From the NCBI GenBank assembly GCA_902728285.1, contig CACVBU010000743.1, positions 1,392,357 to 1,456,356 on the forward strand: 64,000 nucleotides of DNA, written 5' to 3'. Position numbers and translations under genes: made by a program. The notes under the pieces were generated by a model that saw only the letters and a program-made list of their open reading frames with translations, made no database searches and was not told the DNA's origin. The DNA is from Clytia hemisphaerica. Taxonomy: Eukaryota > Cnidaria > Hydrozoa > Leptothecata > Clytiidae. Numbering within the stretch: position 1 is the stretch's first letter; each line of letters starts with the position of its first letter. Shown piece by piece: positions 3,001 through 52,428 of the stretch.

Positions 3001-3619
3001 GAAAGCTTATGCTTCTGAATTAGATGAATACGTTGAGATCCTATTTGACTGGTTTAGAAAATGGGGCTTAGTGGTAAATATGGACAAAACCAAACACATA
3101 AATTTTGGTACAAGTAAAATGTCAATCTGGGTTAGAAATGTAATACTCAAAAAAGATAATAAAATAAAATTCCTAGGTTTACAACTTCACAAACAATTAA
3201 ATCTCATAACACACATTTCAGATAAAATTAACAAATCATACCACATATTAAACTTTCTTAGAACCCTTAAAAACCAATACCAAATGTAAAAGAACAAACT
3301 GTTAATGCTATATAAAAGTATATTAAGATCAAGACTGGAATACTCACATATTTGTTTATTAAGTATCTCTAAAGCCCAACTGTACAGAATAGAGAAAATT
3401 CCAAATCAAGCTCTGAGAATAATATTAGGGAGACCTTTGAGAACAAGAATCACAGACCTTTATCAGGAATCAAAAGTATCATCAATAGAAGATAGACTAA
3501 AAACCCTTGCAAAAAACTGGCTAACCAAAAGTAATGGAGTTCTCCACCATCCTTTAAACACAAACAACTTTATGAACAGACAAAACCCTGAAAAGCCAAC
3601 ATTATTTGAAATAGATTAA
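1..3619 (+). mobile_element. Jockey-like non-LTR retrotransposon (LINE), decayed
   Basis: This is a LINE read in one direction but broken into several frames. Positions 106-459 carry a gag-like ORF1 piece with cysteine/histidine knuckles (C-x2-C-x4-H, then C-x2-C-x4-H-x4-C). Positions 931-1359 match an APE-type endonuclease start (INGYKSKKQDL..., then PDIVCLNKTKL and GGGTAILLRED). Positions 1633-2454 are the linker and first part of the reverse transcriptase; 2451-2729 hold the SDHRPISLLPAIGKIFEKIL and FVDFEKAFDK motifs; 2861-3289 hold GVPQGSCLSPILF and the catalytic box as FADD; 3305-3619 is the thumb and C-terminal part. At least four frame breaks or stops separate the pieces, so it cannot make an active protein as read. 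The 5' end may lie outside the window. Clade placement (Jockey-like) is by eye. Confidence 0.85.
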
Positions 3620-4257
3620 CTACTTTATAAAATCAACCTCTCTTAAAAGTATATATATTTTTTCTTTTTTTCTCGTATATTTTCCTTTTCTTGTATTTAT
3701 AATCATACACAAAAAATTTATTCCTTTTATCTTATACAAAATATTTATTCCTTTATTTACATAACTTGATTAACTCAAAAATGTTATTCTTTATTTTTTA
3801 TTATGCACTTAATATGCATTTTCAAGCATTCACTTTTATTACGTTCTAGTAATACTTTTTAAGTCATAGAGACACAAGTTTTTTCCACCAAAAACATTTT
3901 ATATGTACTTTTAGTACACCGTTACGTTATAGTAAACATTTTAACCAATTAAAATAATATTATAAACCATATATATGTATATTATACATACCTTTCTTTT
4001 CTTTTATTAAATAAATCTTTCATAAAATACATACTTCTTCTTAACCTCTAATAAATTAAAATTAATAATCTTCTAAAATCCTCTTAACCTTATTTAAATT
4101 AAATCTCTCTTTTCTATCACTCCATGTCTTCCACTTACTTATTTAAATTTTAATCAGAAATTCCACAAGTTCAGTAGGCTGGATACAGAAACTTAAGTAA
4201 ACTAAATTAAAATCCTCAATGGGTAAAGGTAGTTAAAAGAACTACAACACCCCTAAC
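3620..4257 (+). other. AT-rich 3' untranslated tail of the LINE
   Basis: No gene is visible. The stretch is very AT-rich with T-runs and short ATATAT tracts and follows directly on the LINE coding remnant. It is probably the LINE 3' UTR, ending near the A/C-rich run (aactacaacacccctaacaa) beside the neighbouring Gypsy fragment. Confidence 0.45.
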
Positions 4258-6195
4258 AACAACTTCACAGATCGGATCAGGCCGGCACTGCCGTCTTTTG
4301 CTTGGTCAACAATCGGCTAGTTGGAATAACGATCAACGGAGACGAAGTAGTACTTGCCCATGTAGTGGAAGAAGTCTGAGCATAGATATTGGAATGGATA
4401 CTCAGGTGTTGGAGGTTTGGTTGGTGGCAGATTCGGTTGAGATGGAGCCATTACATCACAATCACGGCACCGCGAGCGTCGTTCTTTGATAGCAGTTGTG
4501 ATACCCGGTCAGAAGACTGCAGCCTCAGCATGGGCGATCATGGAGGATGTTCCTTGGTGGGCCGAGGACCAGATTTCTGAGGCTGGGAGGAACCACGATT
4601 CTGTCCTTGTAGATGACGACACCATCGATGGTTGAGAGATCAAGTCGGTATTGGTGATAAGCTTTTGAAGCATCTGGGATGTCAGTTAACGATTCGCTGA
4701 ATCCCGATTCAACCATGTTGATAAGGTGCATCATGTCATCACTGGATGTTACTTGCTTCACCATATCCCATGTTACTGAGTTGCATGTCGAAGTGATGGT
4801 AGCAATTGATTGTGAAAGAAGACGATCCTCATCAGCACGGGTAGAAGGTGTTGCAGTAGTGTTTGATGGCAGGAGTTGATGTGCTTTTGGTGGTAACATA
4901 TCGATACATGATATCGATGAAAAGTCGTCAACTAGGTGCATCTTGTTTGGTGATCGCGAGCCACTAGGGTGTCTGGACATGGTGTCAAATCCACAATTCT
5001 TCCTACCGGGGATGTATGTCATGTTGAAGCGATAGCGTAAAGTCTTTTCCTTCAGGTTTCGAAGACGACCATTGGATATATTGTCAAGTGATCGATCGGA
5101 GAAGACGCCCAGTAGAGGCTTGTGGTCAACGGCAACGATCAAGTTATCACATCCAAGCACGAAATGCCTTGATTTGTCGAGAGCGTCAGCTACAGCTAGG
5201 GCTTCCCCTTCAATTGGCGCATATCTGGATTCGGCTGGGTGGGTAAATCTACTTCCGACTAGGACAACTCTCCATCCAATGTTGCAACAGAATGGTTTGA
5301 CGTTTGGATAATCACAATGTTTCTGAAACAACCAGTAGCCCAGTCCAGTCTTTGACCAGTCAGTCGTCAGGGACGTCGGCTTCGTCTTGTCGAAGATACG
5401 AACACCGTTCTCGATTTCGGCAACTATCTGACGTTTCGATTCTTCAAAGATGGATTGTAGCTCTTCATTCAATTGAAACTTGGTTTTCGGTGTCAAGAGC
5501 GATCTGAACGGTGCCATGTAAGATGTCATACTAAAGCTGTAGGCAACTTGATTGACCAAACCGAACCATGATCGTACATCGGTGAGGTTTCTGGGAGTTG
5601 GAAATTCTTGTATTGCTTGGATGATCTTCTTGCATGGACGAACATCTCGAAGCCTGCAAATTCAACCGTATCAGCTGCGAAGGTGAACTTGTCCTTGCAC
5701 AGAGATCGAGCCATTCTGCGGTTCGGTCGAAGCACTGATGTTGTCAGCCCATAGGAGGGAGTCGTCAATGACTTTAATTTTGTTGGGAAAGTCGGACGAG
5801 ATCCGTCTTGTATATCCGTCTCCAGATGAGATGTACCCTTGCGGTGCGGTGCGGTATCTGTAACGACCCCATGGTGTTATAAAAGTAGTAAGATGTTGAT
5901 CTTCTTCGCGAAGGGGAACACTGTGATAGCCATTCCATGCATCTGTGGTCGTCTTTTTAACGTGATGTGGTACAGAACGAACTTGACGGAATGGGGATTG
6001 TGTGTGGGGGGTCTCCCTCGTTGCGCGCGCGTTAAGTGCTTGGAAGTCAACCGTACGTCGTGGATCACCATTCTTTTCGGCAAAAACGACCATTCGATGA
6101 CACCATGTGACAGGTTCGTCAATGGGTACCTTCTCCAAGACATCAAGCATAACATCTCGATCCAGATCTGGTGCTGATGTATGGATTTCATACAT
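4258..6195 (-). mobile_element. Ty3/Gypsy-type retrotransposon pol fragment, decayed
   Basis: Read on the minus strand, 6195-5671 holds the first reverse-transcriptase blocks (DAWNGYHSVPL..., FITPWGRYRYRTAPQGY) and the active-site box as VIDD instead of YxDD. 5768-5526 continues in another frame. 5559-4525 holds the connection and RNase H domain (TTDWSKTGLGYWLFQ, EGEALAVADAL, VDHKPLLG) and the start of integrase. From about 4525 to 4258 integrase continues in another frame: a zinc-finger region with paired cysteines, then the core start CSDFFHYMGKYYFVSVDRYS, each interrupted by stop codons. Gag, protease, the integrase end and LTRs are absent. GC content is higher than in the flanks. The element is a truncated, inactive copy. 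Confidence 0.85.
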
Positions 6196-10729: not shown

Positions 10730-13162
10730 ATGGCATGAACCCCCCCAGCCCGCAGGAGGGGGGGGGCTACAACCAAAATCTTCCTGAAAAAGGCTGGGGG
10801 CTGGATTTTCTTTTAATTTCAGGGGGTACCTATGATCTCTGGGGGTATCGAACTTTCATTGCAGTAAGGTCTGGGGGCTTGGGAACTATATTTTATCTTT
10901 ATTATTATTGTTACAACGAATACAAAGTTCAGGCACGCCGTGGGCCTCTAGAACTGGTCTTTCTTTATTTACAATAAATAGCGTAGTTCATGGTTTGCCC
11001 ATGCTTTGTTTAGATTATTCTTGAACGATTTTATCGATGATGCTTCTGCCACGTATTTTGGAAGCGCGTTCCATGTTGAGATAGTTCTGTAAAAGAAGGA
11101 CTTGCTTTGTGCACCACGTACTCCATCGTCCGGGAAATTCATGTGAAGCTCGTGTATATGCTTTCTACATCCTTTTAATAAACTTTTTTGGTGTTGTTTT
11201 ACTATCATATATGGATATGCTTATACACCTGGACCTAGTCACAGAAAAGTCTTCGAAACTCAAGGGATGGTAGCGCCAAACGTCTTAGTCTTTCTGCATA
11301 TGGTAACCGTGAGATTGGTTTTACTAGTTTTGTCGCACGTCTTTGGACACTCTCGATCATGTTGATAGATCGACGTAATCGTGGTTGCCATACTGATTGA
11401 GCATACTCTAAATGTGGTCGTGCAAAGGTGGTATAAAGTGTCTGGAATACGTGAGGACTAGGGTCTTGAAATCCTTCTTTTGAGCAATCCCAACATAGAA
11501 TTAGCTTTGTTTACTTGCTTAGCGATATGTTCTTCAAATGAAAGTTCTGAGTCTATCAAAACACCGAGATCTTTTTCTGTGAAGACATGTTCAAGTTGCT
11601 CTCCATTTAGTTGATACGGGTGTGCATACTTTATGTTGTCGAATTTACCTACCGTTAAAAAGTGGCATTTGTCGGGGTGGAATTTCAACAGCCACTCACG
11701 GGACCATCTTTCAAGTGCTTCAATGTCATGTTGTACGATTAAGGAGTCAAGAATGGAATTGCCTTTATAATCTTCGTGTCGTCTGTAAACAAGAAAATGC
11801 TTGATAGAACATGTTCTGGTAGGTCATTAATATAAATAACAAAGAGCAGAGGACCGAGCACGCTTCCTTGAGGAATGCCACTTATCACTGGATCTAAAGA
11901 TGATTTTGCACCATTAACATTCACTAATTGCTTGCGGTCCGATAGAAAAGATTTGATCCAGTTCAGAATTGATTTGTTTATCCCGTAGCGTTCTAGTTTC
12001 AACATAAGTCTTCGATGGGGTACCGTGTCAAATGCCTTGGCAAAGTCGAAGTATATGCAGTCGACCACTTCACTTTTTGCAGTTGATTCGCAACACATAT
12101 CTATAAAGGAGATAAGCTGTGTGACTGTTGACCTTTTGTTGATGAAACCGTATTGCTTGTTCGATAGAAGTTCTTCGCTGAAAAGGTGTTCCATGATATG
12201 TTTTCATATCATTGTTTCCATCAACTTACAGGACTACTGAAGTTAGACTTACAGGGCGATAGTTAATAGCAAGGTTGTGTGCTCCTTTGTTTTTATAGAT
12301 TGGTGTCACATATGCTAGTTTCCAGTCACTAGGTAAGTTTCCTTCCTCGACAGTTTTATTCATTATAATTGATAGTGGTTCTGCAATATGGTCACGAAGT
12401 TCAATAAGCATTGAGGCATGAATCTCATCTGGACCTATTGATTTATTTGCATTGAGCTTCCTGATTTGTTCTGTTATCATTTCCTTCGTAATGTTTAGTG
12501 CTTGAAGTATTTTATCTGTTCTGTTGTCAGAATCAGGTAGATCACCTTCCGGTTCATTAGTAAAGACACTGCAAAATTGTTTCTACAGGATGTTGGCCTT
12601 TTCTTGGTCCTCGTGCTTTAGGGATGTCTTGTCATCGGGCGTTTCAAGAAGAGGGGAAACTCCACTTTTTGATTTAAGTTTGCCTCTGACATGTGTTCAG
12701 AATGCTTTTGGGTTTCTCTTTGAGTTTTCACCGATGGCTAGATCGTATTCTCTTTTTGCAAGTGCCATATTTCGATTGACACGGTTCCTCGCGATTACAT
12801 ATCGGATTCTTGCTTGACGTCTGTTTGTGGATGATGATTTTGTTTTTAGCCAGATCCTGTGAAGTCGCCTCTTTTCTTTGATGTCATTACGTAGTTCAGC
12901 ATTAATTGGAATTTTCTCTTTCTTTTTCCAGTGAGGCGCTCCTAACTCTTTTCTTGGGACAAATTGATCTCTGAGTTGAAGAAGTTCTGTGGATATCATT
13001 ATTCTTTTTAATTGTGAAAATACACAATTTTTTCATTTCTTGACATGACAGGGGGTACCAATCACAGGGGGTACCTACTAACGTCTGTTGTTTGGGGGTA
13101 CCTAAAATTCAGAGGGGTACCTATTTTCTTAGGGGGTACCTAAACCCCTGGTCCATGCCACG
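10730..13162. mobile_element. G-capped MITE with gggggtacct array, split by a CR1-like LINE
   Basis: The left end (atggcatgaacccccc, 10730) and the right end (ccctggtccatgccacg, 13162) are imperfect inverted copies, and AATGTC occurs at both borders (10724-10729 and 13163-13168). Both halves carry direct repeats close to gggggtacc: three to four on the left (10760-10880) and five on the right (13051-13140). The middle is a CR1-like LINE on the minus strand. Removing the whole block with one AATGTC leaves the surrounding family gene in frame, which supports the borders. Confidence 0.75.
10905..13030 (-). mobile_element. CR1/L2-like LINE fragment, decayed
   Basis: On the minus strand, 12999-12697 encodes the linker before the reverse transcriptase. 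12480-12226 carries its first blocks (NKSIGPDEIHASML, TPIYKNKG, NYRPVSLTSV). 12194-11739 carries GFINKRSTVTQL, FDFAKAFDTVPHRRL, SGIPQGSVLGPLLF and the active-site box changed to FTDD. 11688-11458 and 11208-10969 hold the C-terminal part (TEKDLGVLIDSELSFEEHI; YRTISTWNALP). Each piece is in a different frame, and no endonuclease is present, so this is a 5'-truncated dead copy. It lies inside a MITE and is therefore the younger insertion. The 3' end is an AT-rich run near 10890-10910. Confidence 0.85.
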
Positions 13163-25625: not shown

Positions 25626-25674
25626 AAACTTTCATTAACATCGCGACAAATGGGGTTTCCAAATCTTGTCACGT

Positions 25675-25867
25675 TTCCGTGATTGACGTGTTCCCCCGGT
25701 TTTTTCTTCGTTTGCGTAATGGCTTCTGATTGGCCAATGCAACAGTTCTTCTCGCGCGTGATTGGTTCTGCGAATATTGTTGCGTCAGCAAAATTTCAAG
25801 TTGTAAATTTCACGTGGGGAGATCATTTGATTTCTGGCTGGCAAGGTGAACACATCGAAAGAATAAA
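25675..25867 (+). promoter_or_regulatory. candidate promoter of the chromodomain gene
   Basis: Between the left transposon end and the start codon lie two inverted CCAAT boxes (gattggccaat at 25728-25738, gtgattggttc at 25759) and a CACGTG E-box (25811-25816). The stretch is also less AT-rich than its surroundings. This is inferred from motifs only. Confidence 0.35.
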
Positions 25868-27438
25868 ATGTCTCGTGGACGTAGTGTTCACTACAAATCT
25901 TTGAATGACTTTTCAAGTGCCAGTGAACATGAAGTGCTGGCACAACAGAAAGTATGCAGAAGAAGAAGAGATGTATACAATGCAGAAGAAATATTAGCAG
26001 AGAAAAAGGTGAGAGTTTATGCTTTTATTTTGGATCAACATTGTGGTTTTTTTTGTGTGCCCCTTGTATTGAGACTGCTATTTTTGTAAACCTAGCAAGC
26101 ATATAGAATTACCAAATGTAATGGGTGGCTCCTTTTCTGTTTTTTTTTGTGTAGATTGGAAAGAAAACCCACTACCTTGTAAAGTGGGAGAGGTACTCGA
26201 CCTCAGATTGTACTTGGGAGCCAGCTGAGAATTTACTTGACAGGAGGTTGTTACAGTGAGTGTTATATATGTTACTAGTTATTTAACCATATGTTAGGTA
26301 TTTATGCTAAGTTGGGATGTGCTGCTGGGCAAGGCTCTTTTCTCATCTACCTCTTGAAATTTCTGTCAGGGTTCAGAATTTCCAAATAAAAAAATGCCTC
26401 TAACACTGGTTCTTTATTGCTAAGGTTTATCGGACAAAGTCAAATCTTTCTCCAGCAGCACATTTTCCAGTCTCAAGGTTAAAGATTTAAGGCACGTGTT
26501 GTACTAGAGTTCTTGGGAAACAGTTTGTTAGATTTTTTTTTGCTGAGATTCTTAGAAAAGAGATTTAGACTTTGGCCGTAGTCAGAGTATACCTGAATAT
26601 ACCTTAAGGGAACTTTTTTTGGTGAGAACTAACTTTGGCGAAGCAGGAATTTTTTGAATTTTGGCAAGAACTTAATTTGGCGAAGCAGGAATTTTTTGAA
26701 TTTTGGCAAGAACTTATTTTGGCGAATCAACGGTTTTTTGAATTTTGGCGAGAACTTATTTTGGCAAATGACAGCGTAAATCAGCTCTTTTTTGCCTTAT
26801 TTGAAGCTTTTTTTGTGAACTCAAGAAATTATTTAGGCAAAATACCGAAATTGGCGAATCAATGATTTTTTTAATTTTGACGCGAACTCAATTCGGCGAA
26901 TGAGCCAAAATAATAATTTTGGTGGGAACTAAATTTGTCAAATTTTGAGTTTGCTTGCCAATTTCGCCAAAATTAGTCTTCGTCAAAATAAGTTCCCTTA
27001 AGATATTGTAATATTTTTTTCAGATTTTGGGAGCAGCCGTGTCCAGATTTCAGGCAAGTTGAGTTCCATGTTGAGCGTCTCCTCTCTTGTTTTGATGCCT
27101 CCTTAAAAGAACGGTTGAAAAGCGTGAAACAGCTTGACTTTCCAGTGGCCATTTTCAGGTATCTCTTCCATGGGAGGGGGTTGGACAAAAAAAGGGGGTC
27201 AAAGCAACTTTATAAGCATGACTTTGACCCTCAATGGTTTCCCAATGATTGGCACAAAAGCATCATTAATAAGAGAGGAAGCAGGAGAGAAATTGTCTTT
27301 CCAATCACCATTCGGTGTTTCTTATCTAAATCTCCAAAGCTATTCAAGGCCACAAATAGCGGAGAGATTCAAGAAAAAAAAACACGGTTGGTGCAAAGAT
27401 TATCAGTTCTTGTTTTCAAGGACACTTTTAATTCTTAG
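25868..27438 (+). CDS. chromodomain protein encoded by the transposon
   Basis: Three exons join in frame: 25868-26008, 26155-26255 and 27024-27438, each border with GT and AG, giving a 218-residue protein. Residues about 36-85 are a chromodomain: VYNAEEILAEKK, then GKKTHYLVKWERYS and CTWEPAENLLDRR. These supply the aromatic residues (Tyr, Trp, Trp) that in the family form the cage for methylated lysine. After a helix (FWEQPCPDFRQVEF...) comes an unrecognised basic C-terminal part. In the family, chromodomains bind methylated histone H3; here it could steer the element to silent chromatin (inference). Its 3' end is 217 bp from that of the transposase gene. Intron 2 contains a MITE. The start is the first Met of the exon, about 230 bp inside the transposon end. 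Confidence 0.85.
26600..27005. mobile_element. MITE of the TACCTTAAGGGAA family with internal ttttggcgaa repeats
   Basis: The left end taccttaagggaac and right end gttcccttaagata are inverted and bounded by TA. Inside are three to four ~50-bp direct repeats (aacttattttggcgaa...ttttttgaattttggc). It occupies intron 2 of the chromodomain gene and would be removed by splicing. Confidence 0.7.
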
Positions 27439-27655
27439 AATTTGATTGTAATACTAGGTTTCAATAATTTTTTCAGAAATATATTTTATCTATGATCATG
27501 CAAGTTCCTGCTGATCATCACATATGGACCATGCACTGGGCATGTCAAAGGTTAAAAAATGAGGCTACATGAAAGTGTTTTAAAGTTTCACTCAAACTGA
27601 GCATACAAATTTACAAAAAATGAAAAATTAATGATTTTTTAATTCTCTTTATGTT

Positions 27656-30600
27656 TCATTCTTCATTTGATGTCGTGTATGTGCGTTTGGTTCTTTCATA
27701 ACCACCCTCCGAAAGAAGCTGCATTCTCTTCTCCGCCGCCAAAAGATTGACACATGCGTCGTGTCTGTTTATCTTCTGGTGAAACAACTTTCTGAAGACA
27801 TCATTCTTCTTTTCAACTCCTGCAAAAAAAGTAAAGAAGACTTCAGTGATTAAATTTGTGTATCATTTCAGAGTAAATATGTAGCTAGAAATTTGATTGC
27901 AGTATCTTTGATTTATTCAGTGATTTCCAGTTATAAAATAAAGATTTTGATTTCCATACCTTGACCAGTAAAGATCTTTAGGGTTTTGTATTTTCTCATA
28001 ATGTCAGGGATGTGTTTCACCATGATGTGAATATAAGGGGTTACAGGGAAGTTCCATGAATAGCCAGTACCATTCATCTTTTTGAGATGAACTACCCATC
28101 GTTTGGCCTAAAAGTAAAAAGGTTTATCATATTTTCAGGTTGTTCTTCACTCAAAGACTGTTATCGTTGTGTTTCATGGTTACAGTGATGTTCACTAGAG
28201 TTGTGTTAAAGTTTTTTACCTACCTTCAATTCAAATTCATCAATCTCTTGAGGTGTCAGTTCTGGCTTGTTCATCGTGACATAAAGATCTTCGAAGTCCT
28301 GAGAAAGTAAGACATCTTTATAATGCACCCCTTACTTAGTACTGTTCTGGGAATTTTTAGAGACTTTTCGAAGTTTGGGAATTTTAAAACTTTTGGGGTT
28401 AAAAAATTTTGAGATTTCCTTTGAATTTTTCATTTCCTGAAAATTTTGTGATATGCAATTTTCTTTGAAAAAGAAAATGAATAAAAATAGAGGGGATAAC
28501 ATTTTCCAGGTTACACACTTTCCACAATTTTCTTGTTGGTTGGACTTGATTTTTTGGTAAGAATTCCTCAAAATAATTTGGAAGGCGTTTAAGCATCCGC
28601 TTTTTGTCATTGCCCATAAGTGATGTCCACTCCACTTTGTTTTGCTTATTCTTCCAAAATGATAGTGTGATTCCAATCTCTTTCATTGCGGCTATTAGCT
28701 TGGTCTTCATTTCTTCGTTGCCATTTTTCTATAAATTGGAAATATAAAAAAAACTTGAGATATCATGTGGGAAATAGTGTTTGCAGTTGAAGAGGGGCGT
28801 ATGGGGTTTGCGATTTCCTAAATACTGCTAAAATTTTCGGAATTCCATTAAAAAATACTTGCAAATTATTTCGCTCCAACTAATCTTAATGGCAGACATT
28901 AAAAAATTAGCCTCGCAAACATTATTTAGCTGTATGAATTAGTTCCCTAAGGTAGAATGTAAGTTCACAGATCAAAAAATGTTTTTTTTTTTTTTCAGAA
29001 AATGCTTCTATTATCACCTCATCTATGTCAAGGATATTATGAAACATTCCATCTTCCAATCTATCAGTGACCCTCAACATCAGATGTAATTCATCTACAC
29101 AATACTTCTCGATTGGAACGTCCTTCAAAATTGGATCATTTTTGCAGCCTGGTTTCTTCTTCCAATTTTTATCAATCACACGTTTCTTGCCTTGTTTATT
29201 TGGGTCTTGTCTGCAAGAAAATGTAAGTGAATTTTTTTGTACCATAACTTTAAGCAAAATTTGATTTAGTGTCAAAGAGTTCAAATGACAAGATGAATTT
29301 TGGGTTTGACCTGTAGCAAGTTTGTTGTTTTTTTCTTGAAATTTTTGGGTTTGGGATGTTTTGGAAAAGTGTATTAGATTTTCACTGTATTTTTCCAAGT
29401 TATTTACTTATATTGATTTCATCAATTTTAGATTGGCATACCTTGTTTCTTTATCAATGTCACAGTAGATGCATGCATTGTCAGATGTGGCTGCCTTCAT
29501 TCCAAGAAGCGTGAGAAGAAACTGAAAACAGAAGAGGTAATTTCATTAATTCTTTTAAAGATTCTTTCACATTTTGGGATTTTCTTTAAGATATTTTCGG
29601 AATTTTGGAAATTTTTGAGGTTAAGTTTTTTGGGATTTTTAGGCATTATTGAAAAAGTGTGCAAGATTTGTTCCAGTGACTTGGCCCTTGTAAGAATAAT
29701 AACGAAAATGCTGGGGCCTACTTTGTAATCCCCACCAATCAACAAATCGACACTTAATTCCTTTCCATCCACAGTTAATTTTGGCTCCTTTGCAATCTTG
29801 TTTACATCTTCTATCAAATCATGGAAACTTTCTTTTATACAGTCGTAGGATTCACTTGCCATTCCCACACCAACAGCATTATTCCCTACAAAAATAGACA
29901 TTACATGTTTTTTTATAAGCAAGTGTATGCCTGAGCCAAGTTTTTAGTGAAATTAGATTTTACTCCTCGTGAGATGGAGAAAATGCTTTAAAGATCCTTA
30001 ATTTATTATCAGAACAATATTGTCAGAGTAAGTTTCTCACCAGAGCTCTTATAGAATGAGCCAGACTCTTCAATGATTGAGTAGGACATAACAACCAAAT
30101 TTGAATGCCGTGTCAGTTTGGTGCCATCTCCACTGATTTTCAACTAGAGAAAGACAAATGATATCATTACCTAGCAAAGACACTTAAGTCAAAAACATTT
30201 ATTGCAAATCTATGGAAACGACTTTCTTTTCTTCAGTTTAATTTGAAATCTGACATTTTTGGATTTACTCTCATACATTTTTAGTAAACTGTTAGTAGTT
30301 AAGGCTTTAAAGAAACTAACCATGATATTATTTTCAGCAGACCTGACCCTTTTATCTGTTTTTAATTCATCAATTAAACTCATTTGAGCTCCAGCACTAT
30401 CCCCAGGTGTCTTTTGGACGTCAAAGCTTTTTGAAATTTCGCGTTGCATATCTTCCACCAAATAAGATCTTGGCAAACCAAATGCGATCTGAGACAGTTC
30501 ATGATATGCTTTGTTGGAAATCATCCATCTGTCCTTCACGTATATGACAGCTTTCATTTTCTCTATTTCAGTCAAGTCATCACCTAAAGAGCGAAACGCA

Positions 30601-32398
30601 ATATGAGACCTAAGATTCAAGACGTGCAACGAGTATATATGGTTATAAATTTCTTCCTTATTGGGCAGGGCTATTAAATCGCATGCCAACTCGTCAGAAA
30701 ATTACCTGCTTTCCATTCGAACGGATTTTCGCTGGTTTGGCTTGACGAAAGTACGCTGGCTTGGCTTGACGAAAGATCGCTGGCTTGGCTTGACGAAAGA
30801 TCGCTGGCTTGGCTTGACGAAATAGCGCTGGATTGGCTCGACGAAAGAATTGAACAATCAGACCGTGATTCACTCATGGAAAGTTCCGTTTCTTCCGTAG
30901 AAGGTGATGAAAGATGTGCCGGAAGTTTCTCCGACCACGAAGATGATCCTAAGTGAAAAATGTTATTATATATTTGAAAGTACTTGTATATTTTTTTGAA
31001 TTCCCGATTAGTTGATTCAAATCTGGCAATTTCAGGCAAATTTAGCTAAATTAATCTCAGTTGATAAACTAGCCTCCCGCTTGATAACTTAATAAGTTTT
31101 CGATTTTTTCCAACCCTCAGACCTTGTCAGATCCCCCGTTCGACGGGTTTGGTTATTAAAATAGGGATTGGGCTTTTCCAGAAAAAATTCGTTCATGGGG
31201 GGTGGAGGATATATTATTTATTCTGTGATCTACCCCTGGACATTTCAATTTTTCACCCCCTGGACACGTGTTTTACCCTGGACAAGCATCAAGTTGACCC
31301 CCTGGACACAAATATTTACCCCTGGACATCGCAGATTCACCCCATGGACATGGCTGTTTTTCAGGGTTTTTTCAATACCCCTGGACAATATATCCTCCCC
31401 TCCACCCCCCATGAATGTTTTTTTTCTGGATTGAAAAAAAACTTTCTTCCTTGATGAGGTACTAGCGATTATTTTAGTTTTGTTAGTAGCTACTTTTATT
31501 TATCCCTTTTATTTATGCATTGAATGTAAATTTGATTTTTTACCCTTATCACATGACATGGATATCTTTGTAGATGCCTTTGTTTTCAATTTTATTTGGC
31601 TTGAAGTGAAACCGAATTTTTCCACTTGTCTTGTTACGCTCTCTCTAAAGAAGAAAACTGTTATAAAACTGGTTTCTTTCTAGCTGAAGCACCTATTTCT
31701 GTAGCGAAATGAAAGAGTTATTGGGCTAAAATAATCAAATTATTTTGATTTGAAGAAAACGTTCTTTACCGAACTTGTGTCAGTCGTCGGTATTTTTGTC
31801 GTTGACCCAACTCCTCAAAGGGTTTCGTTGGTCTAACACCTTTGGTTTGCGGATTCTAAAAACATAATATATTGAGTCAGTGAATTTGTCCATAACATAA
31901 GGGGGGAGGGGCTTTAACAAATCCGACTACTATCTAAATGTTGTCATTTTTATTTTTCTCTGCAAAACTATATAGTTGACCCTCATTAGCCAATAGGAGA
32001 GCAACTAAAGGTATCGATCGATCCATGCGTAATATCTTTTTGGGGCGTGGCAAAAGAGAAGAGTAGGAAATGTCGCAACATACCTGCAATGTTGCAATTG
32101 AAAAGGGAGGTGTTCCAAAGCTGTGCCACAGGCCTTTGATTTTGTAGCGATTTGCCGAGTTGTTCTTTTTGAGCTTCTTCCCGATTCTTTCACCCGCCTT
32201 CCTGATGGACCAATGAATGGAAAGCTCATACGACCCAATCCACCCAGCCTTCGTTAAAAGCCCCTCTACGTAAGCTTTTGCCTCCACAAAACCCATTTTA
32301 CTAAGGAAATGTACCAACTCTCCAGTCATTTCCAAACAGTCTCCAGTGCTGTTTTTGTTAGAGGCTGGTACATATTTCAAAGAGTTTTCAAAAGACAT
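27656..32398 (-). CDS. transposase of the SGDGTK / GGDYK family (12 exons)
   Basis: Twelve exons on the minus strand: 32398-32084, 31855-31770, 30948-30706, 30583-30321, 30143-30041, 29885-29722, 29521-29442, 29210-29018, 28728-28519, 28298-28224, 28107-27960 and 27819-27656 (stop). All borders are GT/AG, and phases agree except at exon 2/3, where one extra base is needed. The protein is about 680 residues: a helical N-terminal part, a basic stretch (RPTKPFEELGQRQKYRR), a serine-rich repeat (SSSQASDL), a helix-turn region (ISNKAYHELSQIAFGLPR), then the core: ENNIMLKISGDGTKL, GGDYKFLLTLLGMKAA, NACIYCDIDKETR, VDELHLMLRVTDRL. The acidic residues in SGDGTK and GGDYK are candidate catalytic residues, and C-x2-C a zinc pair (inference). 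I know this family from invertebrate genomes; no superfamily name is assigned. Its role would be to move the element. Confidence 0.85.
30733..30850 (-). repeat. 24-bp tandem repeat coding for SSSQASDL
   Basis: Five adjacent 24-bp units in transposase exon 3 encode SSSQxSxL octapeptides. The middle ones are nearly identical (cttggcttgacgaaagatcg on the plus strand), so the array is young. The serine-rich linker separates the N-terminal region from the core. Confidence 0.85.
31177..31430. mobile_element. G-capped MITE with cccctggaca array
   Basis: The left end tccagaaaaaattcgttcat followed by ggggggtggagg is matched in inverse orientation on the right (cctccaccccccatgaatg...ttctgga). Between them are seven direct copies of a motif close to cccctggaca. 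No clear target duplication was found. It lies in the intron between transposase exons 2 and 3. Confidence 0.75.
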
Positions 32399-32984
32399 CT
32401 TAGAAAAGACAAAACTGGTATCACGTCAATTGTCGACTTTCGAAAAATAATTTTCAAAAAAGTTTTGACGAAAAAAAAAAAAACATTATACATATTTGGA
32501 AAGCCCTTTGATTATACTTTTCGAATGTTTGGACCTCCAAATTTTTTGCTGTTGTTAAATGCGGGTTTTCCCTGACATGTAAACAAACATTAGGGGAATT
32601 CAAGGAAAAATGTCTCTGTTTTTCAAAGTGAAAAATCACCGCATCGCAGACCTGAAACTTTGTACTTGTTATACATTTTTGGAAAGGTCTAAGATGGAAT
32701 TTCAAAACCCTGAAACACAGGAGGGTTTTAGAATTTTGTTCGAAAAAGCACTGAAGTTCAACGGCTGACAAAAAGAGAAATCCTAGGAGTAACGAGCTCA
32801 AAAAAAGAATAAATGATAGACGAAGTATTGTACTTTTCAAAAATATATATTTCTTTCATCAAAGAATTCTAAAAAATTAATAAATAAACGTGGCTACTTA
32901 GGAAAAATCACAAATTATTTTTCTTGTCTTCTATTTGACATTTTTTCGAACGTTTACCCCCGTCTTTTCTGACGTTCGATTCTT

Positions 32985-32992
32985 TGACGTCA
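32985..32992. promoter_or_regulatory. CRE-like palindrome TGACGTCA near the transposase-side transposon end
   Basis: A perfect TGACGTCA lies seven bases inside the right inverted end of the transposon, upstream of the transposase start. In animals this palindrome binds CREB/ATF proteins; use here is inferred. Confidence 0.35.
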
Positions 32993-33020
32993 AAACATGG
33001 AAACCCCATTTGTCGCGATG

Positions 33021-39022: not shown

Positions 39023-41234
39023 TCAATTGATTTGGTCAAACTTAAGTAAGTTCACCGAACAGTCAATCAAGATGTATCTACTTGCGGGGTCCTCTGTCAA
39101 CATCTTCAAACCTAGGGAAGCCAACTCTTTTATTGATTCAAATTTTCCAATGTTTCTAAAATTATACCCCAACGAGTATACATCTGTGGCCTCAGATTGT
39201 TTTGTCTTTTGAATATTTCGAAGTTCAAAGGCAAGATGCTGATGCCTCTTATTATAAATATCTTGCTCTTTAGAGCCAGGTGCAATATCATACATCATTG
39301 GCGCATTGATGAGAGTGGCTTTACCAAAATCAATTATGCATGGAGAAAGGGAAGGCCTTAAAAGAATATTCTCTCCATGCAAGTCATTGTGAAGAATATT
39401 CTTCTCATGAATATAAGTAAGGCCTTCAACTAACTCCCTGCAAACTTTGAACCACTGTGATTTCTTAATTTTACTTTTTCCAAGAACAGATCTTAGTGTT
39501 TGAGCAGTTGTAATGCTGGTTTTTGAGCCTGATACGAATTCCATTAAAATTGAACCAGAATCAAGTATACCAAATAAATATGGCACAAAACTAGAACCGG
39601 AAAGGTGTTGAAGAACCAAAGCTTCAGCTCTCAAGTCTGCCATGGTTCCTTTGATATTTTTCTTGGCACATGTAATGCCAAGAAAGTTTATCTTGCATAA
39701 TACAACTTCTCCAAAAACACCAGACCATTTAGGATACCCATTGCTGTAAAGAGAGATTTTGTCCTTGGTGAAAGCTGGGATTGTGGACGATAAGGAGGAC
39801 AAAAGCTCATTTCGACAATTTTTCTTCATTTGAGAATATTTGGTTTTTGCAGGCATGGTAAATGCAAGTTTCTGGACTACTCTTCGGTTAATTGGTTTTC
39901 TTTTTGAACTCTGTGTAATTAATTCGTTCTTTAACTTCTTTAACTCCTTTTTGGCATTGATTAAATTGTGTTTCATTTGCTCTTTTGCTTTCCCTTTTCT
40001 CTGCTTAATCTTTCTTTTCATATCTTGTCGATAGTGTTTTCTCCTGTTAATGGATCGCTTAGCCGTTTTTGCTTTTCTGTAAAAAGAATTTTTAAAGCTT
40101 TGAAAAAAATGACAAAAAAAATGCAAAAAATGAGCGTCAAGCTAAATCATGATTTGTACAGTTTAAACATGGTTTAGAATGTTTTGACTGATGATGTTAT
40201 TTTGGCATTTTTAATGACTAACAACATGCACACCCAATCTAACTATTTGGTCAAATTTTGCATGGTTTTTTAGCATTGTAATCAAAACTTGTCTTTTAGT
40301 TTTAAACAATGTACCATCCACATTTGGACACTTTTGAATGGCTAATGCTGATATGTGTTTGGCATGCTAGATGACTACACATATGCCAGATGATACAATG
40401 TTTAAATTCTAAAGGACATTTTAATCTTGTGTTGTTTTACAGAATTGTTTCCACTTTAACAGGATAAATTTTGAATATTGTTTATACAAAGAAAATGTTG
40501 TCAAGAAAGTCTTTGAAATGGTTAAAATCATTTTGCACTCGTAAGCCACAAAACCAAACATTCACAATAAGGAAATAGTTTATTGATGCAAAGGTAATCA
40601 ATTTACTATGACAAAACATAAGTGTAAAGCAATTATTGTTTAAAAAAGCATACCTTTGCGTAATTTGTGAGTCGTCTCTTGAGGTTGAGTCGTCCAAAAT
40701 GGGTAAGGTATCGTCAATATTGTTGTTTCTGAAAAAGAAGAGAGTTTGTGACATTCTGTGACAAGATTCACCAGCTACTCTATGGAATATATTATTGACT
40801 TTGGTAAAAATGGTTTTGATTTTGCTCTCAGATCCCTAACATAACAGGAGGGCCTTGAATTTTAAAATAATGAATTTCAGTAATTCAGTACTTTTTCTAG
40901 TGTTTTCCAATATTAATAAATGCTAGCCAGAAATTAACCATGTGGGAAAGGACAAGTTGAGGGCTTAAAAGCATGTAAAACTTATGCCCAGAAAACAGCC
41001 GGTAACATTGGTCTGTGATAGCAGAATTCAACTGGCCCAACAATTTTTAACAAAGAATCATTCTGAGGGAAAACTAATCGTTTAAAGATAACTCGAGGTC
41101 CCCAAAAAAACCTTAAAATGTTACCTCATATTTGGTGAAGTTTCCTGATTTTGACCTCTAGGGAGTAAGACTTTAACTCCGTTGGGAGTAGAGGTTGCAT
41201 TCAAAACTAACGGTCTTTTGGCAGCTCTTGGCAT
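39023..41234 (-). CDS. protein kinase-domain protein, intact
   Basis: Three exons on the minus strand, 41234-41125, 40728-40654 and 40076-39023, join in frame with GT/AG borders to give 412 residues. Residues about 65-130 are strongly basic and helical (KRKIKQRKGKAKEQMKHNLI). The kinase domain follows: glycine loop as SGVFGEVVLCK, lysine in ITCAKKNIKG, helix-C glutamate in LRAEALVL, catalytic loop HNDLHGENILL (usual HRD changed to HND, Asp near residue 293), IDFGKA for DFG, and TDVYSLG for the F helix. All core catalytic residues are present, so activity is plausible; substrate unknown. There is no signal peptide or membrane segment, and the basic region suggests nuclear or nucleic-acid association. 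Such divergent single-exon-like kinases occur in cnidarian repeat regions (memory). It could be a host gene or cargo of an unrecognised element. Confidence 0.85.
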
Positions 41235-47224: not shown

Positions 47225-47524
47225 GGTCAGAGGGAGGGATGGGTAGTAAAATCTTGGACATTATGATATTTGCTACCTGATGATGTGACAAAAAAATTAC
47301 CAAAATAGGTAGGTGGTATCTATGTGTAAACTTTTGGTAAGCTTTTACTACCTGGGTAGCTTTTTTTGTGAAATTGGTGGTCTCTTTGTCAAATTGTCCC
47401 GAACAAATTTACTACCAGGGTAGCAAAATACCTATTCCAAAAATCTGGGGGGAAAATTCGTAAAAATCCTTTTACTACTCATATTATGTCTGAGATTTTA
47501 ATACCGACCCCCTCCCCCCCCCTT
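47225..47524. mobile_element. G-capped MITE with actacctgggtag motifs
   Basis: The left end gtcagagggagggatgggta with gtaaaatctt is matched in inverse orientation by aagat-like sequence and ccgaccccctccccccccc on the right (agattttaataccgacccc). Inside, tactacc(t/a)gggtagc palindromic motifs recur. No sure target duplication. It lies in an intron of the tnp2 gene (46865-47601). Confidence 0.6.
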
Positions 47525-50149
47525 TGTCGATTGTATAGAGGTTGTATATAGGACTTACAGATTTACCTTTACTTATATCTTTTTAAATAACTTTTCTTCA
47601 GGTATCAAGAGAGGTATGGAAGATTTAACCAGACGGAGAGATTTTCTTGACCTCCTTTTTCGAGATATACAACAGAATGATGAATACCTCTCGGACATTT
47701 ACGATGGCAAAATGTATAAAACATTTAAAGATTTAGATGGAAATTTTTTCTTCAATGACAAACGCAACATCGGATTGATGCTAAATTTTGACTTCTTTGA
47801 TCCTTTCAAAAGGTCAAAGTACTCTTTAGGTGTCTTATATGCAGTGATAATTAATCTTCCAAGGGAATCACGCTTTTTATGGGAGAACGTCCTGGTAATC
47901 GCTGTTGTTCCTGGTCCTGAAGAACCAAAGCTAAGTATCAACAGCTTCCTTGAGCCTTTGGTTGATGAACTGATAGAAGGCTGGTACTCTGGGATGAGAA
48001 TAGAAGAGAGTGATGGACTTTGTTCGCTATACAAGTTTGCTGTTGTTTGCATTTCCAGCGACCTCCCAGCGTTACGAAAAATTGGTGGATTTTTGTCCTT
48101 CAGGGCTAAGCTAGGTATAAGTTATTTTTACAGCTATTTTTTCAAACACTTCCCATGTTAGTTATGCTTGAGTGGTGAGAACTTACGCGTTTTTAAAATG
48201 TGATCTGTGTGCTGGTTTCTTTGTGTTACCCCTTCTTTGTGATACATCGTTTGACATTGGCTTGCCTTATCTCTCTCATTTCAGGATGTAGTAAATGTTT
48301 GACGATTTTTACATGGGAGCAAAAGGCTAATGAAAAGAAAGGAACACCTGCAGTCGAAAGAAACCTTGGCAAGTTTGAGTCTAATAAATGGACTTCAAGA
48401 AAAGGTGATGAGCACAAGAGGCTAGGATTCAAAATTGCAAAAGCGAAAACGTTGGATGAAACTAAAACAGAAGAATCAAAACATGGTGTTCGCTATTCCG
48501 AACTTTTCCGACTTCCGTATTTTGATCCAATTAAGATGCATGTTGTTGACCCAATGCATAACCTTTTTCTAGGTATGATGAATTTAAAATTATAATCTTT
48601 CATGCATGAAATGGTGACAACTAACTTCCGATTTTTTGTGTAGAAGTGTCTGAAGAGAAAAACGTAAATTTTTAGCCTGAAAGGTTTATTTAGTTTTTCT
48701 TTTACTAAATTGATGATAGCTCCTGTTTTCGATATTCAATTTTCAGGAATCGCCCATCACGTCTTTGACACCTGGATGGAGACAGGAACCATTCAAGCAA
48801 AGATCCATTTTCAAAAAATTAATGCAAGACAAGAAAGAATTCGTGTTCCATCAGATATGGGTCGTATTAGCACGTCGGTTTGTAGCCATTACAAAAACAT
48901 GAAGGCTGATGAGTGGAAACATTGGGCTCTGATATATTCTACTTACTGTCTTAGGGGTATGTTTGCTGTGTATATTCTCTATTGTTTTCCGGTTTTTGAA
49001 AAGTATTGATTTCGTTTTATGACATCGAGTCTTTTGAATCAAATGATTGATTATCTAATTTATTTATATTTGTATTTTTGGTTTTAGGAATCATTCCTGA
49101 TAAGGATTTGCGAATTTGGACAAAATTTGTAAACGCATGTCACATGATATGTGTCCCTGTTGTTCGTTTGGCTGAAGTTGAAAAAGCCCACAAACTGCTG
49201 CAAGAATTTGCTAAAGAGTTCGAAGCCCGGTACAGCAGCAAATTTACGGTGCCGAACATGCATATGATGCTCCATCTTAAGGAAGGCATCGAGGATTATG
49301 GACCATTGTATGCTTTTTGGTGTTTTGGATTCGAGAGGTATGTATACAATTCTAGGACTAATGTTTCTAGAATCCCAACTTGTATAAACAATATAATTCA
49401 AAATTACCAAGCACTAAAAGCTATAAGGATTTTATATTCCTATTAGCATTTAGTTTTTTTTTCTTTATCAGACTCACTTGGCTAAAATATTTTCACCTAC
49501 TCACTGAAACAGGGGTGTAAATGTGTGTGTTTTTCTGGGAACAGAATGTTTTTATTAATTTGATTCTATATTTCTAATTGTCTTTTTTGACGTAGAACAT
49601 TAAGATACCCCTGTCTCCTTTCTATAGAAAAGCACATGATAACAGCTAAGCTGGATATCTTAAACATCCGTACCTTTAATAGGGTGATGCGATCGATTAT
49701 TGCTTTGAAATTATTTCTTCTAAATTTTCAGGTATAATGGGTTCTTATATTTTGGGTTCTTTTCAAACAAATGGTCACTCTATTCCTCTCCAAATTATGC
49801 GGAAATTCGTCACTTTTTCAAAAATGTCATCGGACAATGATTTTGATAACATTTTTATCGATGCTGAAGAAGATAACGACCGAAAACAGACCCCAAAAGT
49901 TGATTTCAAAGAAGCTCTTTCAACACTGTACACGTCACAAATCGATAGCTCTTGTTTTGAAAACGAAATTGAGGTTTTGAGATCCAAAGGTCGGCAGGCA
50001 AAGTTGGATAATGAAGTTATCAATTTACTTATTGAAATGTTTAATAATTTTTGTGGTATTGGAATAACGAAAATTTCTATTCTAGCTAAAAGTGCTAGTC
50101 GCATTTCAATTGGTAAACAGGTCTTTATATATATATAAAATTTTACTAT

Positions 50150-52428
50150 TTCCTATTCCTAGAAAATAAGGACAGAGAGCCCTTTAAGAAGACTCCCTGT
50201 CTATCTTGCATTTTTCTTTGCAATAGCCAGTCCACAAAACTTTTCAATCGAACAATTCTCATTTTTAATTACTTGATCGAGTAAAGTCAAAGAAATTCTA
50301 CCACGTTTGCAATTTTTATCATCGTTAAACATTAACAATTTACTCAAGCGACCAGAAGGCATTCTCACAACATGAGCTGCGTAGTTTCGTTGCTGTTGTT
50401 TGATAAAAACATTAACATCTGAGGTACCACATATAGTGTGAAGCTGGTTGTTGCTAATGACGTATCGAAAATCATTATTGACCTCATCTACATAACGAAA
50501 TCCACCTCTGACCATTCTCCTCAAAAACATTCTATAGGTGACATCGAGGCGATCGTACTGGAGAGACGTTAAGTTCCAGTTCTGACATGAATACGTTAAC
50601 CGGCTCCTGACGAAACTGTTGAGGAAGAAGATACGAACACGTAGGTTGATTTGGAAGTTTTGTAGCAGGTTAGACATTTGGGCGAATTTTACAATTGCAA
50701 GTTGAATTCGTTGATTGAGTTCTGCTTCCCCTGTGTTTGGTTGAAGGTGATTAAGGACAGCACCAAGATATTTGAATTCTTTGACATTTTTGAGTTGCTC
50801 TTCACGAAGAGATATGATAGAATCGAGATGTTGTTCTTGATTGATGGTCATTGTTTCGGTTTTCGAGACATTGATTGTCAAACCAAAGGCAGTGAAAGTT
50901 AAATCCAAAAGCTCTGTTGCAGCACTGATACCCTCGAGTGAAAGTAGAAAGAGGACGATGTCATCAGCATATCCACACCAAGAGAGAGTCGCTTCTCCCC
51001 AAGTTCTTATACCACTTGCTCTCATCTCGAATCTTTCTGCACGAGAGTGTGCTTGTGGGTTAACTCGATATTTGTGTTTGAAGTACTTGATTCGGTTATC
51101 ATCTTTACATTTTTCGATAAATACTCTCATAACGAAGTCTAGATATAAATTGAACAAAAAGGGACTTTCGGGTCCCCCTTGACGCACACCGGAAGTCGTT
51201 TTGAAGGATATCATAGCATCGTCGTAGGTGAGGGTGGTATTTTCGTACAAGGTTTGAAGAATTTCGAAAGTTCGAGGGATGGATCTATCAGGGAAGCGCA
51301 GTTTTATACTTTCAAAGAGCCAGCTTCGTGGTATGTGGTCGAAAGCTGCACTTAAATCAACAAATAGAAGAAATGTAGGTTCAGACTTTTTGTTTGAAAT
51401 TTGGTGAACTCGTTTGACTGTGTAGATACCGTCTGTTGTTCCACGGTCCTTTCTAAAGCCATTTTGCTCATCCGATAACTGATTCTCGTACCAGGGTCTG
51501 AGTCGTTCAAGAATCATATTAATGGCTAATTTGCAGACGGTTGATCCTATACTAATTCCGCGGTATTTTGTTGGGTCTTTCTTTGAACCTTTCCCTTTCC
51601 ACAATGTCTTAAGTCTAGAGTTTCCCCACACACCAGGGATGTCGAGATTATCCCACAGGTTGAACATCATTCTCTGTATCACCTGAAGCATGATTGGTTC
51701 GGTACATCTTTTCAAGAGCTCCGGTTCAATGTCGTTAGATGCCTTATTATTTTTAAGTTTTTGTAAGTGTTTCTGTATTTCTTCAACGGTTGGGGGTGCA
51801 TCATTTAATTCAGAATTCAATGAGATATTCTGTAGAGCATTGACGAAAATTGGAAGATTCAGAAATTCCTCAGGTGTTTGGGTTGTAGAAGGGTCTTCTG
51901 GGTTAAAAATGTGTTTTAAAAAATGGTTCAAAAGTTTGTCCGGAGGACATGATCCAATGACTGGGTTTTAAGGTGGGTTTCTTGCTTTTTTGGCACGGGC
52001 AAATAATTTATCAAGTTCTCTGTTAATGGACAATTGGTTTATTTTCTCGGCTTCATCTCTATAAAATTGATTTCGTAGTTGTCGAGCTCTAGTTCTGATT
52101 TTCTTACGAACGGCTTTCACTTTTTTCGGACAGGCATTTCTCATTACCAATAGTTCTTTCTGTTGATATAGTTCCTTAAGTTTTACATCCTCATGCCACG
52201 GCTGGTGTAGTTTTCGGGCAACTATTTTCGGAATCGTTTCGTCTGCAGCTTCTTGAATAGAAGTAATAAAGTGTTCGTTGAGTTGAGTATTCGATTGCAT
52301 TTCTGGCTGAATATACTCAAGCTTGATGGAGAGATTCCTTTTAAAGTTTTGTTCTGTCTCTGCTCGATTCAGGGATTTGAAGTCAAAACGTTTCTTTGGT
52401 GATTTCATTCGATGCTTTGCCACCAACA
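50150..52428 (-). mobile_element. RTE-like LINE, 5'-truncated, almost open
   Basis: On the minus strand a nearly continuous frame runs from 52426 to 50201, broken by one in-frame TAA at 51968-51970. The upstream part (52426-51968) is the basic linker that follows the endonuclease. The downstream 576 residues are the reverse transcriptase: NNKASNDIEPELLKR, DPTKYRGISIGSTVCKLAIN, DEQNGFRKDRGTTDGI, FVDLSAAFDHIPRSWL, GVRQGGPESPFLFNLYLD, and the catalytic box GYADDIVLF intact. The C-terminal part follows (YLGAVLNHL, LTYSCQNWNL, MFLRRMVRGG). The endonuclease is absent, and the short untranslated end runs into a (ta)n tract at 50130. It lies inside the tnp2 gene and is the younger insert. RTE placement is by eye. 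Confidence 0.85.

Follow-up and report, generated by a model that had tools for sequence, protein, structure and literature searches.

A probable two-gene DNA transposon of Clytia hemisphaerica that encodes a distant relative of RAG1 and a separate chromodomain protein

The window analysed here is a stretch of 64,000 nucleotides from the hydrozoan Clytia hemisphaerica (contig CACVBU010000743.1), and positions 25639-33020 within it are occupied by an element that is probably an autonomous two-gene cut-and-paste DNA transposon, with the parts of its mechanism deduced as set out below. The element, its terminal repeats included, is 7,382 bp long and carries two genes that face each other, one for a chromodomain protein on the plus strand and one for a transposase on the minus strand. 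It is bounded by an exact 22-bp terminal inverted repeat, CATCGCGACAAATGGGGTTTCC, at 25639-25660 (plus strand) and 32999-33020 (minus strand), so that the termini read CATCGCG...CGCGATG, i.e. CA...TG; the repeat has matches elsewhere in the genome, and the shuffled control gave a mean of 0.00 matches (100 shuffles). All 14 introns of the two genes have GT/AG borders, the phase is unbroken, internal stops are absent, and no lesion was seen in either reading frame of the window copy. The splice junctions of both gene models were picked by eye to keep the phase open, so the GT/AG agreement is partly by construction. The exact 22-bp inverted ends and the convergent arrangement, which the original prediction had read from the letters of the window, are thereby borne out, as is its count of three exons for the chromodomain gene, while the transposase gene has 13 exons rather than the 12 proposed.

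The case for a single mobile unit comes from the rest of the genome (417 Mb in 951 contigs). The 22-bp end has 35 matches at up to two mismatches, 16 of them exact, and the reversed control pattern has none. Both genes are found within both ends in six elements (the window, C27, C43, C234, C118, and C355), of which the C27 element reaches 15,976 bp through an insertion in intron 1, and those of C43, C234, C118, and C355 have ends that deviate from the ends in the window at several positions. Among 25 chromodomain loci, the distinct ones of 30 fetched out of 108 exon matches, a convergent transposase tail lies within the flank at 21, at a distance of 13 to 937 bases, and 23 of the 25 are paired once the more distant tails at C118 and C333 are counted; at the chromodomain loci of C695 and C360 no transposase tail was found. 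The recurrence of both genes within the ends, together with the pairing of the loci, indicates that they move as one unit, and the predicted partnership between a transposase and a separate chromodomain protein thus holds.

The family also includes many short derivatives of the element. Both ends were located for 23 of them, most about 1.4 kb long and the others 0.16-4.3 kb, and those of the main type retain roughly 540 bases from the right end. The interiors of 14 short derivatives with both ends gave no match to either protein. Copies of this kind, with the same ends and neither gene, had been named in advance as evidence against a single unit; they do exist, and are read as ordinary non-autonomous deletions. 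The nearest full copy, C27, is 87-98% identical to the window element in pieces, a comparison that leaves out element bases 3304-5865, and no identical copy of the window element turned up. With these figures, the proposal that the element was active recently receives weak support.

Insertion of the family duplicates one base. When the flanks of 29 end pairs were compared, a 1-bp match was found in 21, a number reached in none of 200,000 permutations, and the duplicated base was T in nine, A in eight, C in three, and G in one. The match is present in 19 of the 23 short derivatives versus two of the six full two-gene elements (the window and C118), so that the footprint rests mainly on the short derivatives. 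Longer target-site duplications were rejected: 2 bp agreed in 5/29 pairs (1.96 expected), 3 bp in 1/29, and 4-8 bp in 0/29, while 9 and 10 bp agreed in none of the first 20 end pairs. At most 28 of the 29 pairs are independent, because L040 and C506 have common flanks. Pairs whose second end was absent from the fetched stretch were left out (L002, L011, L015, L018 as a short pair, L023, L029, L030, L035, L036, L038, L042, L044, and L046), as were C375 (right end not in L081), C359:39624, and unpaired left-end variants. Joined flanks used as a query gave a list of 126 places, some of which are related to three insertion sites in repeats but unoccupied. The nine empty sites at these three insertions (four, three, and two per site) are each shorter by exactly one base at the junction; the empty sites of L041 are situated in repeat arrays. 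In the two derivatives with empty sites, a T next to other T's is the additional base, whereas the full element C27 is flanked by C on one side and G on the other, so that one of them has changed. By the 1-bp rule taken from the end pairs and the empty sites, the window element is presumably flanked by a duplicated A, with its left copy at 25638 and, from reading of the flank, its right copy at 33021. In 3/29 pairs, L012, L014, and L103/L104 (C11, C89, and C794), the terminal C is replaced by T at both ends together (TATCGC...GCGATA), which was perhaps inherited or perhaps reflects end processing.

The transposase gene runs on the minus strand from 32398 down to a stop codon at 27656-27658 and encodes 714 amino acids. 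Exons 1 to 3 (32084-32398, 31770-31855, and 31544-31644) are followed by exon 4 (30706-30948), which encodes a Ser/Gln-rich linker, and by exon 5 (30321-30583). The presumed catalytic residues were placed by alignment of relatives: the first Asp, D342 (30126-30128), lies in exon 6 (30041-30143), the second, D423 (29728-29730), which is the Asp of a GGDYK motif and is also located by the profile alignment to RAG1, in exon 7 (29722-29885), and the Glu, E663 (27812-27814), in exon 13 with the stop codon (27656-27819). The same alignment places a C(2)C motif, C442/C445, in exon 8 (29442-29521), a DELH motif (H494) in exon 9 (29018-29210), and an H(4)H motif, H638/H643, in exon 12 (27960-28107); exons 10 and 11 occupy 28519-28728 and 28224-28298. 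Three Clytia proteins, P0001-P0003, align at 70-73% across 99-100% of residues 250-714, which lends independent support to the gene model. Within exon 4 a 24-bp tandem repeat at 30730-30849 is coding and gives rise to the linker, and P0001 and P0003 carry other repeats at about the same place. One intron contains, at 31177-31430, 254 bases with 32-nucleotide inverted ends (91%) and repeated CCCCTGGACA motifs, possibly another nested short element.

By profile and motifs the transposase appears to stand near RAG1/Transib, at the level of a distant, profile-only similarity. A search with residues 250-714 returned 93 relatives, with Clytia at the top (73%), followed by corals, Hydractinia, sponges, molluscs, and Saccoglossus, and the only functional name among them is one 'SAP domain-containing' entry. 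On the window protein itself the Pfam RAG1 match stays below the cut-off (E=0.016), but when a profile of 58 relatives was compared with solved structures, RAG1 (3jbw, E=1.1e-5) and RAG1L (6b40, E=1.2e-5) came out on top, with best single stretches of 2.7e-3 and 1.1e-4, respectively. At E<1e-3 there are 11 distinct solved sequences, every one RAG1 or RAG1L; from E=0.005 on, unrelated, mostly coiled-coil structures appear, with a few further RAG1 entries interspersed. The alignment sets the GGD Asp on the RAG1 Asp that precedes the C..C pair, and the H....H pair and the final Glu also align. The corresponding columns are conserved in nearly all of the 58 relatives (D342 in 57, D423, C442, and C445 in 58 each, H494 of DELH in 56, H638 in 56, H643 in 55, and E663 in 56). 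At E up to 0.1, Pfam RAG1 matches 12/58 relatives (best 2.4e-6) and DUF1280 6/58 (best 0.0028); for the latter, the window protein itself gave no match up to E=1. The 'GGDYK family' of the original prediction therefore survives as a local motif, while the family relationship suggested by profile and motifs is to RAG1/Transib instead. Single-frame Pfam scans yielded weak matches only, and a genome-wide Pfam RAG1 scan, which had no match anywhere, is uninformative since 14 controls were likewise unmatched.

The chromodomain gene lies on the plus strand and encodes 218 amino acids in three exons. Exon 1 (25868-26008) ends at a junction common to the relatives, exon 2 (26155-26255) encodes the core of the chromodomain, and exon 3 (27024-27438, stop codon included) encodes a C-terminal domain of about 138 residues that is strongly conserved among relatives. 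Pfam Chromo (PF00385) matches residues 37-84 at E=2.8e-14 and 53.2 bits against a cut-off of 25.1; it was the only domain recognised at E up to 1, with no kelch, PHD, or enzyme domain. The closest of 44 solved sequences are chains of CBX8, CBX2, CBX6, and Polycomb. The window protein has aromatic residues at Y37, W58, and Y61, matched by Y, W, and W in P0095, P0097, and P0098, at positions which we take to be the methyl-lysine cage of the chromodomain, and it may accordingly be predicted to bind methylated histone H3 through this aromatic cage. A profile search built from 17 sequences returned 13 proteins, all of them Clytia, EukProt TCONS, or JGI/ENA sequences, and detected no outside relatives of the C-terminal domain. 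The splice sites are supported by P0094, which comes from a 2,382-base JGI contig and is different from the spliced model at one residue, and by P0096, which tracks the C27 copy through the same two junctions. Exon by exon, the Clytia proteins P0095, P0098, and P0103 and the EukProt TCONS proteins P0096 and P0097 are 96-100% identical to genomic copies, and predicted proteins of relatives with the same junctions provide support that is independent of the choice by eye. A structure model built from P0094 reached a mean predicted local distance difference test score (pLDDT) of 41 and was unusable. In two divergent copies, L049 (C792) and L051 (C421), a single open frame covers residues 43-218, and so the second intron seems to be missing there. 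In the window this intron includes, at 26599-27006, 408 bases with 44-nucleotide inverted ends (84%) and internal 42-bp tandem repeats, which look like a nested short inverted-repeat element.

Both genes look as if they were under purifying selection. Compared with the window copy, the proportion of differing synonymous sites (pS) in the chromodomain gene is 0.72-0.81 and that of nonsynonymous sites (pN) 0.20-0.31 in 19 of 22 copies, and the transposase gives a pS of 0.77-0.87 and a pN of 0.19-0.35 in 14 of 19. Synonymous sites are thus saturated while the proteins stay alike, as would be expected of selected parts of the element. The chromodomain set comprises 22 of the 25 loci, with L047 (the window itself), L051, and L074 left out; copies of more than 60 codons are shown, stop codons were passed over, and some codons may have been counted twice where pieces of the alignment overlap.

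The closest parallel in layout is offered by RAGL elements, in which the RAG1L and RAG2L genes are arranged tail to tail, the target-site duplication is 5 bp, and the PHD of RAG2L binds the histone H3 tail (PMC7204232). RAGL/ProtoRAG and the Clytia element share a RAG1-like DDE transposase with zinc motifs and two tail-to-tail genes, the second with a histone-H3 reader domain. However, the partner in RAGL has kelch and PHD, whereas here it consists of a chromodomain and a C-terminal domain of no recognised fold; the ends start with CATCGCG instead of the heptamer-like CACT... terminal repeat of RAGL/Transib; the duplication is 1 bp (5 bp in 0/29 pairs), and the similarity to RAG1 is confined to the profile level. 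Because target-site duplication, ends, and partner all differ, the element is not a RAGL element. The CMCT clade (EnSpm/CACTA, Mirage, Chapaev, Transib, Plavaka, ESTA, and Lanisha) is characterised as having a DDE centre, two C, three H, mostly CA..TG ends, and target-site duplications of 2-5 bp (PMC12730594). The element resembles it in D-D-E, in C(2)C and H(4)H between the second D and the E, and in its CA...TG termini, and the PlavakaB ends CATCA...TGATG are similar to its own (PMC12730594), but its 1-bp duplication lies outside the stated range and it carries a chromodomain gene in addition. Judged by residues and termini, the element would work like a CMCT transposon with a different target spacing. 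RAG1 and DUF1280, the latter equated with Chapaev, have been placed in one clade (PMC3985635).

Further parallels concern single traits. TET/JBP genes are described in transposons of several fungal lineages, CMCT members included, and SET genes in others (PMC12730594). The TET-carrying DNA transposons of fungi resemble the element in having an additional gene concerned with epigenetic marks, but theirs encodes an enzyme that acts on DNA methyl groups and here it is a histone reader. Ty3/Gypsy elements with chromodomains (chromoviruses and others) are likewise mobile elements with this domain (PMC12477816), although in these retroelements it is fused to the integrase, whereas here it is a separate protein of a DNA transposon. 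The Spy group of PHIS transposons shares a DDE enzyme and an unusually small target footprint, but differs in having no target-site duplication, AAATTT targets, and a PHIS-type transposase (PMC4482050). The word chromodomain is absent from the main text of PMC12730594. Among the open PubMed Central matches listed, none was seen to describe a DNA transposon with a chromodomain partner gene, to report a 1-bp target-site duplication in relatives of the element, or to describe the element itself; Repbase may hold these repeats, and Repbase or Dfam the element.

On the observed anatomy, recurrence, selection pattern, and footprint of the element a mechanism can be proposed. The transposase would bind the CATCGCG... 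ends and would cut and join with a D342-D423-E663 centre, the DDE chemistry suggested by the motifs, so that the two target strands are joined one base apart. The chromodomain protein would be the second component and dock on methylated histone H3, its conserved C-terminal domain would contact the transposase or the element DNA, and it would tether the complex to chromatin with an H3 methyl mark or let it act there. The original prediction proposed, as a hypothesis, that the chromodomain protein guides insertion or shields the element. Given the domain it carries and the parallel with RAG2L, its role is most likely that of a partner comparable to the PHD finger of RAG2, provided by an unrelated protein. 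It is tentatively suggested, at a confidence short of even, that a separate RAG1-like lineage independently gained a histone-reader subunit that steers or licenses the transposase by methylated H3, with a 1-bp target stagger. Several observations weigh against the main explanation as a whole. Eight of the 29 end pairs fail the 1-bp match, which just two of the six full elements show. Relatives of the transposase span corals, sponges, molluscs, and a hemichordate, whereas for the chromodomain protein the matches found are confined to Clytia, EukProt TCONS, and JGI/ENA sequences; the pairing may therefore have been gained locally. From the side of the transposase, 13 of 25 clusters (62 of 468 candidates scored) have a chromodomain gene detected close by, and in the other 12, nine of them with just one or two exon matches, none was detected. 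Among the remaining copies, which are close to that of the window and partly decayed, the ratio of nonsynonymous to synonymous substitution rates (dN/dS) of the chromodomain gene is 2.24 at L054, 0.63 at L060, and 0.36 at L068, and that of the transposase is 0.18-0.60. Finally, activity, a transposition intermediate, and contact between the proteins are all unobserved.

The strongest rival explanation, which is possible if somewhat doubtful, places the chromodomain protein outside the cutting complex, as an anti-silencing or expression factor on chromatin methylated at lysine 9 or 27 of histone H3 (H3K9me/K27me) over the copies. Transposons with TET or SET epigenetic proteins are a known precedent (PMC12730594), and the conservation of the chromodomain gene in the element fits this role equally well; the presence of Chromo alone, with no enzyme domain recognised, speaks against it, and the strongly conserved C-terminal domain suggests a further contact, but the explanation survives both points. 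We consider it unlikely that the element simply belongs to one of the established groups, Chapaev, Transib, or RAGL, and has an extra gene. The RAG1 similarity of the transposase profile and the DUF1280 matches in 6/58 relatives would fit, DUF1280 being the family equated with Chapaev (PMC3985635), but the 1-bp duplication departs from the 5 bp of RAGL (PMC7204232) and the 2-5 bp of CMCT (PMC12730594), the ends read CATCGCG, the partner has no recognised kelch or PHD, and none of the 53 DUF1280 places listed in the genome is at the element or at the places of its relatives. It is improbable that the chromodomain gene was captured from the host and rides along as a passenger that does nothing for the element: many chromodomain matches in the genome lie outside the family of the element, which would fit, but the saturated synonymous sites, the conservation of the protein across subfamilies, and the constant convergent position point the other way. 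A chance placement of two unrelated genes between copies of an end repeat, conceivable for a single locus only, hardly deserves credence given that six elements hold the two genes between the two ends and that 21/25 loci have the transposase tail.

The pairing of RAG1 and RAG2 looks like a single historical accident, in which a transposon with a histone-reading partner became an immune recombinase. If the reading of a gained histone-reader subunit is true, the Clytia element would be a second case, with an unrelated reader placed and oriented alike next to a distant relative of RAG1, and would let the value of such a partner to a transposon be probed in an animal amenable to laboratory culture. 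In addition, the 1-bp target-site duplication would extend the known range of target spacing in CMCT-type transposases.

ARAGORN found no tRNA. Elsewhere in the window, three open frames with RVT_1 reverse transcriptase matches (2768-3289, 11739-12203, and 50201-51967) resemble long interspersed nuclear elements by look, and at 4525-6195 on the minus strand two frames with RNase H and reverse transcriptase pieces (the latter below the cut-off) resemble a broken Ty3/Gypsy element. An open reading frame at 47502-48161 has a Transposase_21 (tnp2) match (E=1.6e-14) and belongs to a separate CACTA-type transposon, and one open frame of 372 amino acids at 39023-40141 encodes a protein kinase domain (E=2.5e-16).

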